A DNA stretch of 64,000 nt from Paraburkholderia sp. SOS3. GTDB taxonomy: Bacteria > Pseudomonadota > Gammaproteobacteria > Burkholderiales > Burkholderiaceae. Both the position numbers and the translations under genes were made by a program. Every line of letters begins with the position of its first letter. Within the stretch, counting starts at the first letter, position 1. The stretch is taken from assembly GCF_001922345.1 (NCBI RefSeq), contig NZ_CP018811.1:3844001-3908000 (forward strand), written 5' to 3'. This document shows positions 8,836 through 22,300 of the stretch, piece after piece. A model generated the notes under the pieces. It searched no databases. It was not told the origin of the DNA and saw nothing but the letters and a program-made list of their open reading frames with translations.

Positions 8836-10899
8836 TCATTTCGTGTTGTCGATCACCGTCTGCCCGTTGTATTCGACCTTGCCTCTGAAGAAGTAATCGG
8901 TGCATGCCTTATAGTCTCCCGGCGTGATCAGCGAAAAGGGCATCTGATAATCGACGAGCTTGCAGCCGGTCACCGGCTTGCCGTTCGCCCATGCGTAGTC
9001 CTTGTCCAGATACGCCTGGGTCGCGGCCGCCGATCCTTCGGTGAAGCCACGCATATTCGCGCAACCGAGCGGCTCGTCGGAGGGAATCGTCACATTGAGT
9101 TCGCGCGCCATCTCCTTATAGGCCGCTATGCGGTTCTGCACCTGCGATCGCTCGGCGCCTCCCCCACCACATTCGATACCGCCATTGATGATGTACACGG
9201 TCGCGCCGAAGCCCGGCTTCATGTTGTTGGCGAGGTCGACATTGTTGGGCTTCCACGTGCCGTCGATGACCCACGTCATCGGCGGCTTCGGCGTCTGCGG
9301 CGTGACGGCGAACCAGATCGCGGACGCGAAGTTGAGCCACGTGTCGGCGACACGCCCGGGATTATCGAGCAGCACGTTCGGATCTCCATACAGCGCCTGC
9401 GAAAAGGGACCGAAGTTATAGTTCCACGACAGTTGCTTCGCACCGCGCCCGAAGTAGTCGAGATATTGACCCTTGCTGTTCTTCGCGCACGCATAGAAGA
9501 TCCAGTTCGTTGCATGCGACCCCGGCGCGCACTGCTGATACGCGCCCACCGCCGAGCCTTCCTCATATCCGGACTCGCGCAGATACCAGAGCGCCTGCCG
9601 CCATGTCGGGATCGCCGCATCCTGCGGCATCGTCGCGAGCACCGGATTGTTGTGATCGGGATAGCCGGATCTGGCCTGAGCCGGCGTTAGCGATGGCCAG
9701 TTCGCGCCGGTTTCCTGAACGAAGTGCGCAAACGATGTGGCGAGCAGCTTTCGACAGATTGCATTCGCATCGCGCCCGTCCTTGTAATCGCCGCAATACG
9801 CGGGGAACTTTGCGATGCCCCGCAGTAAGTTCACGTACGAGTAGGCGATGTTCCTTATCGGGAACAGCTCGTTGAACTTCTGCTCGCTGACGATCGACTC
9901 GACCCGCTTCACGTTCGACGGATTGGCGGCACGCCCGGGTACGACGGCGTCGACATCGCTATCGGGCAGCACGCGCAGCGCGTCGCGCAGGATCTCGATG
10001 CGCCCTTGCGATTGGGCGACCAACGCGCTTTCGGCTTTGCTGAAGTCCGCGGCGGTGGGATAGCTCGCAGTTTCCGCGATATAGGTGATCTTTGGCTTGT
10101 AGGCGGCGGGGGTTGGTGTTGGTGTCGGTGTCGGTGTCGGTGTCGGTGTCGGTGTCGGTGTCGGTGTCGGTGTCGGTGTCGGTGTCGGTGTCGGTGTCGG
10201 TGTCGGTGTCGGTGTCGGTGTCGGTGTCGGTGTCGGTGTCGGTGTCGGCGTCGGTGTCGGTGTCGGTGTCGGTGTCGGCGTTGGCGTTGGCGTTGGCGTT
10301 GGCGTTGGCGTTGGCGTTGGCGTTGGCGTTGGCGTTGGCGTCGGCGTCGGCGTCGGCGTCGGCGTCGGCGTCGGCGTCGGCGTCGGCGTCGGCGTTGGCG
10401 TTGGCGTGGGTGTCGAGCCGCCAGAGCACGCGCCCATATCCTCCCAAACGCCCCAAGCACCCGACTGTGCGGGATTGTCGCCTTGTGTCCACCACTTGTT
10501 TTTGTAGTTGTGTCCGTTGTAGGTCACTTTGGTCCCCGGCGTTGCGTATGCTTGCGTGGCTAACCAAGCTGGGTAGCACCCTCCGGGCGTCGGCGTCGGC
10601 GTCGGCGTCGGCGTCGGCGTCGGCGTCGGCGTCGGCGTCGGAGCAGGAGCCGGTGCCGGCGTCCCCCCAGCCGCTCCCAAATCTCTCCACAATGTCGGCG
10701 AACTCGACGGCGTCCACCCCGAGCCCGGATACGCCGTATGCGTTTGCAGCGCCTGATAGCTGCGCCCGTTATAAGTCACAGTCGTGCCGGCGGTGTAGGT
10801 CGCCCCTTCATGCCACGCCTGTTGCGCATACCCGGCGGCAGCATGGAGTACCGCCAACACCGGCAACAATGCGAACCCTTTATAAACACGCGACTTCAT
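8836..10899 (-). CDS. Secreted GH19 chitinase with two chitin-binding modules and Thr-Pro linkers
   Basis: 687 residues. After a signal peptide ending near GYAQ come a carbohydrate-binding module of the CBM5/12 type ([20 protein letters not shown]), a short Thr-Pro linker, a second such module ([20 protein letters not shown]), and a long linker of about 50 Thr-Pro pairs. The catalytic GH19 domain starts near residue 267, with the catalytic-acid motif FAHFVQETG (Glu396) and the family signature [16 protein letters not shown]19 enzymes hydrolyse chitin with inversion. The start at ATG 10899 has GGAGG upstream and gives the signal peptide; a longer open frame to 11034 does not. It is the last gene of the secretion operon, 115 bases after the preceding one. 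Its binding modules closely match those of the GH18 chitinase at the operon head. Confidence 0.93.
10111..10411 (-). repeat. Hexanucleotide repeat tract coding a Thr-Pro linker
   Basis: About 50 six-base units in the GH19 chitinase gene, written on the plus strand as GGTGTC, GGCGTT or GGCGTC. The three unit types occur in blocks rather than mixed, which suggests growth by local duplication. Because units are six bases, gain or loss changes linker length without shifting the frame. A shorter tract of the same kind lies at about 10586-10640 in the same gene. Confidence 0.95.
10430..10822 (-). repeat. Chitin-binding module segment, copy 1 (partner at 21828-22218)
   Basis: This segment encodes the two binding modules of the GH19 chitinase and is closely similar in DNA and protein to the equivalent segment of the GH18 chitinase 11.4 kb away in the same orientation. 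By eye the protein modules agree at most positions, for example [11 protein letters not shown] and [20 protein letters not shown] in both. Confidence 0.85.
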
Positions 10900-11014
10900 A
10901 TCGCCTCCGCTCGATCGCAAACCATCCGCACGCCCCGACGTCGACACGCACGGACACAACGCCGGTCTAACGCCGATCCCGGCAGGCCAGGCCTTGCGCC
11001 TCGAACCACTCACC

Positions 11015-20226: not shown

Positions 20227-20227
20227 A

Positions 20228-22300
20228 TCACTTGTTCACTTCACCGAGGATTTTCGTCAGCTCCGCATCGGACGTATCGCCGTCCAGCTCCCAGGAAAAG
20301 ACGCCGCGCAGGTTCTGCTGCTTCGCGTAATTGACTTTCGTGCGGACCGTCGCCGGTGTGTCGTAAGACCAGAACGTCGTGCCGTCGAACTTCCACGATT
20401 GCCTGGCGACCGGATGCTCGTACACGGTGCCGGGCGCACTCTTCAATATGCGGTAATCCTGTATGCCTTCTTCGTACTTGCCGGGCGCCGGCTTGGTGGC
20501 CTTCTGGTAGAGCCCATCGCCTTTCGGCCCGCCGGTCACACCGGTCCAGCCGCGGCCGTAGAACGGAATGCCGACGACGATTTTCGACGGCGGCACGCCT
20601 TTTTCGAGCAGGCCTTTGACCGCGGCGTCGACGTTATAGGTCGCGCCGTTTTCGGTCTTCACATTCGGGCTCTCGGGGTCTATATAGAGATTCGATTGAA
20701 AATCCGTGGGGCCGGTCGACTCCCATCCGCCGTGGAAGTCGTAGGACATCACGTTGATCCAGTCGAGCGATTTGCTGTACTGGGCGGGATCTGTATTGGC
20801 GATCTTGTCTCCACCCGAGCCGATGGCAACGGTCAGCAGATATCGCTTGCCCTTTTGCGCGCCGATCGCATCGAGCTGCTTGCGGAACTCTGCTAGCAGC
20901 AGCGTGTAGTTTTGCTTATCGTTCTGGTCGACGATGTTATAGGGTTGGCCGCCCCCACCCGGAAACTCCCAGTCGATATCGATGCCGTCGAACACGCCGT
21001 CTGCCACACCGTCTCCGCCGGCATTGGAACCCGCATCGAACGGCAGATTGCCTTTGATATAAACGTCGATGCACGACGCTACCAGTTGCTTGCGACCCGC
21101 ATCGGTCGATGCGGCACGACCAAACCACTTCGACCAGGTCCAGCCGCCGAGCGAAATCATGATCTTCAGGTTCGGGTACTTCGTTTTCAGCTGCTTCAAC
21201 TGATTGAAGTTGCCTTTGAGCGGACCGGCCTTGCCGTTACGCGGATCGTCCCACGCGTATTGCCACGGGTCCGATGTTCCGCTTACCGCTTCGTTAGCCG
21301 AAAAGCCCTTCTGATAGTCGGCCCACGCATCGCCGCCGGTGCCCGCATCCGGCGCGTTCGGATTCGTCGCGCCGGGTTCCGCCTTGTTGACGATGCCGCA
21401 TTCATAGCCGCCGTTCTTCGCATAGATGTTGCCGAACGCGTAGTTGATGAAGGTCAGCTGCTTCGCCTGACCGGACGTGTCGATGTCCTTCACCTTGAAG
21501 TTGCGGTCGTAGATGCCCCATTGCGCGAAGTAGCCGCCTATCTCGTGTGCGCTCGAGGATGGCGAGGGTGCCGGTGCTGGCGTCGGTGTCGGTGTCGGTG
21601 TCGGTGTCGGCGTCGGCGTCGGTGTCGGTGTCGGTGTCGGCGTCGGCGTCGGTGTCGGTGTCGGTGTCGGCGTCGGTGTCGGCGTTGGTGTCGGCGTTGG
21701 TGTCGGCGTTGGTGTCGGCGTTGGTGTCGGCGTTGGTGTCGGCGTTGGTGTCGGCGTTGGCGTTGGCGTTGGCGTTGGCGTCGGCGTCGGCGTCGGCGTT
21801 GGTGCCGGTGATGGGCCGCCGGCGCATGCGCCCAGATCCTGCCATACCCCCCAACTACCGGACTGCGCCGGATTGTCGCCTTGCGTCCACCACTTGTTCT
21901 TGTAGTTATGTCCGTTGTAAGTCACCCATGAGCCCGCATTTGCATACGCTTGAGTCGCAGACCATTCGGCATAACATCCCGCACCCGAGGGCGTTGGCGT
22001 TGGCGTTGGCGTTGGCGTTGGCGCAGGTGCAGGTGCCGGTGCCGGAGAAGGCGAAGGCGTACCGCCAGCCGTTCCGAGATCGCGCCACAGCGTCGGCGAA
22101 CTGGGCGGCGTCCAGCCTGCGCCCGCGTACGCGGTGTGCGTTTGCAGCGCCTGATACGAGTGGCCGTTATACGTGACCGTGGTACCGGCGGTGTAGGTCG
22201 AGCCTTCTTTCCACTCGTCGGCCAGCGCGCCGATCGAATGAGCTGCGAGCAACCACGCAACGAGTGCTGACACACAAGCCCCATTCTTCTTGATCTTCAT
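20228..22300 (-). CDS. Secreted GH18 chitinase with two chitin-binding modules and Thr-Pro linkers
   Basis: 690 residues. A signal peptide ending near GALA is followed by a CBM5/12-type module ([20 protein letters not shown]), a Pro-rich linker, a second module ([20 protein letters not shown]), and a linker of about 38 Thr-Pro units. The catalytic TIM barrel starts near [15 protein letters not shown] and carries the GH18 active-site motif DGIDIDWEF with catalytic Glu445 (codon 20966-20968), then [14 protein letters not shown] and [13 protein letters not shown]18 enzymes cleave chitin with retention by substrate-assisted catalysis. AGGAGATCTT stands before ATG 22300. It is the first gene of the twelve-gene secretion operon and one base from gspG, which makes it the likely cognate substrate. 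Confidence 0.95.
21578..21809 (-). repeat. Hexanucleotide repeat tract coding a Thr-Pro linker
   Basis: About 38 six-base units in the GH18 chitinase gene, again blocks of GGTGTC, GGCGTC and GGCGTT with one stretch of the twelve-base alternation GGTGTC-GGCGTT. The tract matches in type that of the GH19 chitinase but its block order is different, so the two have evolved separately since duplication. Confidence 0.95.
21828..22218 (-). repeat. Chitin-binding module segment, copy 2 (partner at 10430-10822)
   Basis: Encodes the two binding modules of the GH18 chitinase and is closely similar to the segment in the GH19 chitinase, in the same orientation. The pair forms long imperfect direct repeats that enclose the whole secretion apparatus. 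Confidence 0.85.

Follow-up and report, generated by a model that had tools for sequence, protein, structure and literature searches.

A probable type II-kind secretion machine on a pilus-type inner-membrane core, linked to two chitinase genes, in Paraburkholderia sp. SOS3

Gene Content of the Cassette

The stretch of DNA analysed here (hereafter, the window) comprises 64,000 nucleotides of Paraburkholderia sp. SOS3 (contig NZ_CP018811.1, positions 3,844,001 to 3,908,000), and window positions follow the numbering of this full stretch. At positions 8836-22300, the window harbors a cassette of 13 genes, all of them on the minus strand, in which two chitinase genes bracket what is probably a self-contained type II-kind secretion machine whose inner-membrane core is of the pilus type (Table 1). 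A preliminary description of this DNA had counted twelve genes, one fewer than the actual list. The tight same-strand packing that it described is borne out: (i) a single nucleotide separates the stop of the GH18 (glycoside hydrolase family 18) chitinase gene from the start of gspG; (ii) 4-nt ATGA overlaps are found at the junctions M-N, N-O and O-P; and (iii) the gap between X3 and the start of the GH19 gene is about 115 nt.

Table 1. Genes of the cassette, in the direction of transcription
Gene	Product and features	Position	Strand	Evidence and remarks
GH18	Chitinase; signal peptide, two CBM5/12, long proline-threonine-repeat linker	20228..22300	-	Open frame to 22348
gspG	Major pseudopilin	19738..20226	-	TIGR01710 147.1 bits; GFTLLE motif
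gspF-like	Inner-membrane platform protein	18530..19714	-	PF00482; GspF model below equivalog cut-off
gspE-like	Assembly ATPase	16852..18525	-	PF00437 405 bits; Walker A and two CxxC
M	PilM/GspL-cytoplasmic type, without membrane span	15996..16829	-	Fold
N	PilN-like, one N-terminal membrane span	15406..15999	-	Pfam PilN in family, PDB PilN
O	PilO/GspM-like, one membrane span	14894..15409	-	Family profile against PilO 3jc8
P	Proline-rich, small C-terminal domain, weakly PilP-like	14280..14897	-	Best PDB rows PilP
D	Lipoprotein secretin (lipobox, TPR domain, N0, N1, secretin domain)	12436..14283	-	Pfam, lipobox Cys, structure model
X1	Conserved minor pseudopilin, lineage marker	11951..12418	-	N_methyl 7.8e-08
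X2	Minor pseudopilin, GspG-like	11568..11945	-	N_methyl and partial T2SSG on longer frame
X3	Pseudopilin without Glu5, GspK-like position; true start uncertain	11015..11647	-	Gly-1 kept
GH19	Chitinase; signal peptide, two CBM5/12	8836..10899	-	Open frame to 11034; Pfam GH19 1e-28

Components of the Machine

Taken together, the following features point to a type II secretion system (T2SS) rather than a retractile pilus: (i) the GspG protein surpasses the NCBIfam equivalog cut-off of its model (147.1 versus 88.85 bits for TIGR01710), the major subunit of the cassette thus being GspG and not a PilA-type pilin; (ii) no PilT-type ATPase was found within the window by a PF00437 search, the GspE-like protein being the sole match there; and (iii) X3 lacks Glu5. 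On the first two of these points, the clear GspG and the missing PilT, the preliminary description was correct. Among the systems of the same lineage (see below), the GFxxxE motif is present in 122/122 G proteins, which speaks for the same reading, and in 140/142 X1 and 129/139 X2 proteins. X3, in turn, keeps Gly-1 in 136/136 aligned proteins, while the six commonest residues at position +5, which account for 130 of the 136, are not Glu. A missing Glu5 is the hallmark of the tip pseudopilin GspK and, in consequence, X3 argues for a pseudopilus.

GspF, GspE and the secretin match NCBIfam models of both the T2SS and the type IV pilus (T4P), but they reach no cut-off of either. Thus, F scores 258.3 bits with the GspF model (equivalog cut-off 424); the ATPase, 459.7 bits with the GspE model (cut-off 630.25) and 437.1 bits with the PilB model (also below its cut-off); and D, 160.4 bits with the GspD model (cut-off 351.35). 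The MshL model gave 102 bits (cut-off 250).

The inner-membrane part looks to be of the pilus type, with the PilM and PilN homologues as separate proteins. The M, N, O and P proteins of the window have no Pfam match of their own and, among NCBIfam models, they gave nothing but one chance-level match on an over-long N frame; hence, they were named from profiles of their families and from a structure model. As far as M is concerned, it lacks a membrane span in 28/33 family rows and, according to its modelled fold, resembles PilM or the cytoplasmic domain of GspL. N has one span in 29/31 rows, and its family is matched by Pfam PilN in 19 of 31 members and by a PDB PilN with an E-value of 0.0075. 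The O family profile matches PilO 3jc8 (E 7.1e-09), and its Pfam matches are evenly divided among PilO, T2SSM_b and T2SSM (3 each, of 30 members). By contrast with N and O, P is weakly assigned: none of the 35 family members has a Pfam match, its best PDB rows are PilP (E 0.15 and 0.39), and a weak resemblance to GspC was found too. The PilMNOP-like character that had been proposed for this part is thus supported for N and O by profile and for M by fold, and weakly for P; the proposed absence of canonical gspC, gspH, gspI, gspJ, gspL and gspM genes agrees with our search of the operon, in which none was found.

The secretin D is a lipoprotein with a fused TPR domain. A lipobox is present on D in 127/137 systems, when a permissive pattern is used, and its cysteine is invariant in the 42 aligned D proteins. 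In all of these 42 proteins Pfam recognises Secretin, a single Secretin_N region and STN, together with TPR_19 in 35 and TPR_14 in 32. An AlphaFold2 model shows helices to about residue 161, with block pLDDT values mostly of 85-95, and after them regions that resemble N0, N1 and the barrel (mean 77.3, pTM 0.45). Both profile and Foldseek comparisons rank PilQ proteins first among secretins of solved structure, closely followed by GspD. Since D has a lipid anchor of its own and a TPR domain fused to it, it may need no separate pilotin; by analogy with the liposecretin HxcQ, which is self-piloting, these features suggest that D may pilot itself. As a side observation, a Cohesin domain lies inside the secretin of 9 of the 42 aligned relatives, and the copy of D in Eleftheria terrae is annotated as a "cohesin domain-containing protein".

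Distribution and Phylogeny of the Lineage

A profile of X1 built from 15 sequences was used as a marker in genomes of the same genus and in a sample of the order. It matched 47/144 same-genus genomes and, at the level of the order, 144/399 sampled genomes belonging to 67 of 158 genera. Carriers include Iodobacter, Massilia, Janthinobacterium, Nitrosospira, Paraburkholderia nodosa and Pseudomonas monteilii; more distant ones are Acidobacteriota (e.g., Geothrix), which are the X1 neighbours found here outside the beta- and gammaproteobacteria. For the comparison of loci, 20 kb were taken around 20 places plus one paralogue, as well as around 100 more places (50 from the same genus, 50 from the order), and 43 loci (L047-L089) were added to the fetched set. 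In total, 144 records were mapped, 142 of which have X1 by profile (L088 and L089 do not). In the fetched loci, X1 is surrounded by this same module.

The exact order G-F-E-M-N-O-P-D-X1-X2-X3 was recovered in 69 of these 142 systems, a recurrence which argues that the gene order is not due to chance. In the remaining strings, components are missing (contig ends, profile sensitivity) or neighbours are swapped, partly because over-long starts of open reading frames served for sorting; locus L074 is truly rearranged.

When 131 system ATPases were placed in a tree together with 11 references, all systems fell on one side of a branch with an SH-aLRT support of 97. In a more careful tree of 54 rows, the 44 systems form one clade (100/100) and five canonical GspE proteins another (100/99), with a warning from the program about long branches between the two. 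The system ATPases thus stand apart from the GspE and PilB references, their deeper placement with respect to PilB being provisional. The preliminary description had presented a mix of T2SS and T4P parts. In view of the spread of X1 and of the single ATPase clade, the machine is a member of a separate and widespread lineage, not an ad hoc hybrid. In public annotation of such copies, what lies between E and D is labelled hypothetical and, in consequence, these machines have likely been overlooked in secretion surveys.

Linkage to Chitinases and Other Enzymes

Both chitinases exceed the Pfam cut-offs (GH18, 263.7 bits), each with two CBM5/12 (carbohydrate-binding module) stretches, and the catalytic motif DGIDIDWE is found at residue 439 of the GH18 enzyme. 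Their N-terminal parts share 74% identity over 152 aa, a segment that spans both modules, and the four CBM5/12 stretches of the genome all lie within these two proteins. In both, very long proline-threonine linkers (10100-10640 and 21550-22060) join the binding modules to the catalytic domain.

Query sequences derived from the window and from two relatives revealed 38 hydrolase-like frames in the vicinity of systems: (i) 30 on the gspG strand, immediately upstream of that gene, with gaps of -16 to 371 nt; (ii) three directly downstream of X3; and (iii) five elsewhere. G is present in 122 systems, and at least 1.5 kb of upstream sequence was in hand for 118 of them. A polysaccharide-active enzyme directly precedes gspG in 30 of these 118 systems, and this cargo linkage is the new point of the present analysis. 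Three types of enzyme occupy the place. A GH18 enzyme is found in ten systems, namely the window, L147, L157, L048, L201, L204-L207 and L213; a chitin-active lytic polysaccharide monooxygenase (LPMO10) with a GbpA domain and CBM5/12, in L051 (by Pfam) and its near-copy L058; and giant GH2/GH64/CBM32 proteins, in 18 same-genus loci. As regards the opposite end, GH19 follows X3 in the window and in the genus relatives L147 and L157, so that in these three loci GH18 stands at one end and GH19 at the other. The genomes of L201, L204-L207 and L048 are ones which we take to be Chitinibacteraceae; that of L213 is Chitinimonas sp. BJYL2.

On the ATPase tree, the chitin group comprises 19 rows (support 100/97), with 10 GH18 and 2 LPMO genes upstream. 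GH18 requires 3 to 4 changes on the tree and, hence, does not reflect one clean gain, while the 18 GH64-type rows form one clade. The clustering of enzyme labels beats shuffles, an effect which near-copies inflate.

A further 30 same-genus systems have a response-regulator and an SCO1-like gene upstream; from these, one SCO1 protein was scanned with Pfam, separately from the 40 upstream frames of other systems (see below). SLT genes were observed directly upstream of gspG in three of the 40 other systems scanned and also in the plasmid-borne copy of Burkholderia ambifaria (see below). Downstream of the machine, loci L075-L078, L055 and L056 encode proteins with PEP-CTERM-like tails and proteins of about 500 aa, the latter with no Pfam family in the two examined; both kinds are possible cargo of other sub-lineages.

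Genomic Context and Transfer

The genome consists of two large replicons and a small one, with 7.5 Mb in total. It contains one PF01478 prepilin peptidase gene (C1:4103571), which is located some 200 kb from the cassette and adjoins PilB-like ATPase and GspF/PilC-like genes. As the preliminary description had assumed, then, the machine must be served by a prepilin peptidase encoded outside the window. A complete-looking canonical gsp cluster is found at C1:152-172 kb (D, E and F assigned by profile, the others by position and N-terminus). The second replicon carries another copy of the machine (L047, G000:C2:2303001-2323000), one of the 18 loci of the giant type; its protein directly upstream of gspG has at least 2456 aa, with GH2, five F5/8C, Ig and GH64 stretches.

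GH18 and the machine diverge in step: identities to the window are 95% for GH18 and 93% for E in L147, and 78% for each in L157. Colinearity between L147 and the window extends over positions 7490 to 23620, whereas L157 matches inside the cassette only. Of the 62 places in the genus list, 3 are of the GH18 type and 2 of the LPMO type; outside the genus, the ATPase tree shows Chitinibacteraceae as the closest relatives. The cassette is flanked (window 7409-8813) by a tRNA-Lys gene together with an SLT transglycosylase gene in convergent orientation, the latter matched in 1/58 sampled genomes, its own. Elsewhere, a copy of the machine resides on a Burkholderia ambifaria plasmid typed as conjugative (L249, NZ_CP086300.1), where the four genes between E and D are annotated as hypothetical. 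The cassette belongs to a chitin sub-clade which also includes Chitinibacteraceae and Chitinimonas and, from these comparisons, it was probably gained by transfer.

Comparison With Known Systems

The cassette shares with the canonical T2SS the GspG major pseudopilin, GspF, GspE, a secretin, a tip pseudopilin without Glu5 and exoenzyme cargo (in the cassette, predicted cargo). It differs in that (i) the canonical system has GspC, GspL and GspM, whereas the cassette has no recognised protein of these types and its M and N are split; (ii) it has three minor pseudopilins instead of four; (iii) its secretin carries TPR and only N0-N1; and (iv) its ATPase clade is separate from that of canonical GspE. 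The T2SS of Burkholderia rhizoxinica, which exports chitinase, chitin-binding protein and chitosanase, is encoded by a canonical gspC-type cluster (gspC to gspK and on in Table 1 of the portion of PMC4166002 available), unlike the cassette module. Independently, in E. coli K-12, a canonical gsp cluster (L247) lies a few genes from chiA, another chitinase-T2SS neighbourhood.

With the type IVa pilus, the cassette has in common the order M-N-O-P-secretin, PilN- and PilO-like proteins, the PilM fold and a PilQ-like N0-N1 secretin. On the other hand, the pilus has PilA in place of GspG, no PilT-type ATPase is found in the cassette window, P is devoid of a lipobox and the secretin has a fused TPR. 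The MSHA pilus (MSH) is alike, by the description in the sections of PMC6668835 at hand, in being encoded at a single locus without a prepilin peptidase. In the same sections, Denise et al. derive MSH and T2SS from the type IVa pilus and report PilMNOP homologues in both (PMC6668835); no chitinase-linked module is described there.

Judged by description, the nearest atypical T2SS is the Pul/OxpG system of the Geobacteraceae. It, too, is described as an atypical T2SS, the second of its kind, with an exported enzyme and with two or three pseudopilins (PulG, OxpG, TklG); its cargo is the multicopper protein OmpB, in contrast to the chitinases predicted as cargo of the cassette (PMC3543383, in part). 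Finally, a second cluster of Ramlibacter is given as gspDHEFG in the available part of PMC3164672, an order which differs from that of the cassette.

Interpretation

The cassette is best read as belonging to a variant of type II secretion that has a pilus core and includes a sub-clade dedicated to chitin, the copy in the window being, on sequence grounds, most likely dedicated to chitinases. Gene content, gene order, homology, folds and cargo linkage are established by the comparisons above, and from them we infer secretion, substrate specificity, transfer, self-piloting and regulation. Since both chitinases have signal peptides, it is proposed that Sec would take them to the periplasm. The single PilD of the cell would mature GspG, X1, X2 and X3; GspE, docked on M/N/O and GspF, would polymerise GspG beneath an X1-X2-X3 tip; P would connect to D; and the growing pseudopilus would push the folded chitinases through D, after which their twin CBM5/12 heads may keep them on chitin.

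Several observations weigh against this reading, and most of them suit the explanation that the chitinases are hitch-hikers, exported by the canonical gsp system or otherwise, while the machine secretes something else or many things. The canonical gspC-N-like cluster of this genome could export the same enzymes, for which reason chitinase export by the cassette is worded here as a prediction, and chitinase export through a canonical system is known from B. rhizoxinica (PMC4166002, in part). By the queries used, 88 of 118 systems do not have such an enzyme upstream, nor do 7 of the 19 chitin-group rows, and the Pfam scan of the 40 other upstream frames yielded no common cargo among the families listed (25/32). 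Furthermore, M and P lack a sequence-level family assignment. Nevertheless, hitch-hiking is unlikely in view of the three enzyme classes at the same same-strand place directly upstream of gspG, the 1-nt GH18-gspG junction in the window, the divergence of GH18 in step with that of the machine, and the GH19 gene that closes the opposite end of three loci. The earlier suggestion that chitinases at both ends denote a dedicated exoenzyme system is thus strengthened as regards linkage, which recurs in relatives, while its export part stays a prediction.

It is very improbable that the cassette encodes a chitin-binding T4P, with chitinases acting together with an adhesive fibre instead of being secreted. 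The PilN- and PilO-like parts, the domain make-up of the PilQ-like secretin and the PilB-like scores of the ATPase are compatible with such a pilus, but a major subunit identified as GspG by equivalog cut-off, the lack of a PilT-type ATPase in the window, a tip pseudopilin without Glu5 and linked genes for exported hydrolases are not what it predicts. Somewhat less doubtful, though still rather unlikely, is membership in the Pul/OxpG T2SS, in which case the kind would be known already; the secretion of OmpB and the two or three pseudopilins per system (PMC3543383, in part) favor it, while the X1 neighbours found outside the beta- and gammaproteobacteria are Acidobacteriota. Returning to the pilus-core variant, it can be tentatively put forward, at slightly less than even chances, that it constitutes a separate, horizontally moving class of T2SS, one with a core of the pilus type and a TPR lipoprotein secretin that pilots itself, some sub-lineages of which are each committed to one polymer through an enzyme gene fixed before gspG.

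If this were true, the two machines of the strain would form a fungal-wall kit, one for chitin (replicon 1) and one for beta-1,3-glucan (replicon 2), while the gsp system would serve general purposes. The link to both polymers points to roles in fungus-bacterium contact. How the T2SS selects its substrates has long been debated; where one cell has paralogous machines that differ in the enzyme gene fixed at the same place, specificity can be addressed directly by swaps and deletions. Besides, the lineage illustrates that 11 genes and a shared PilD are enough for such a machine, and its make-up, between pilus and T2SS, is relevant to the question of how either one evolved into the other.

Additional Observations

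Near the cassette, the window encodes an autotransporter of 1446 aa (PF03797; 24253-28593, minus strand), and L147, though colinear with the cassette region, lacks the segment between about 23620 and 32977. Upstream of the plasmid-borne copy L249, cytochrome c peroxidase and transglycosylase (SLT) genes are found.

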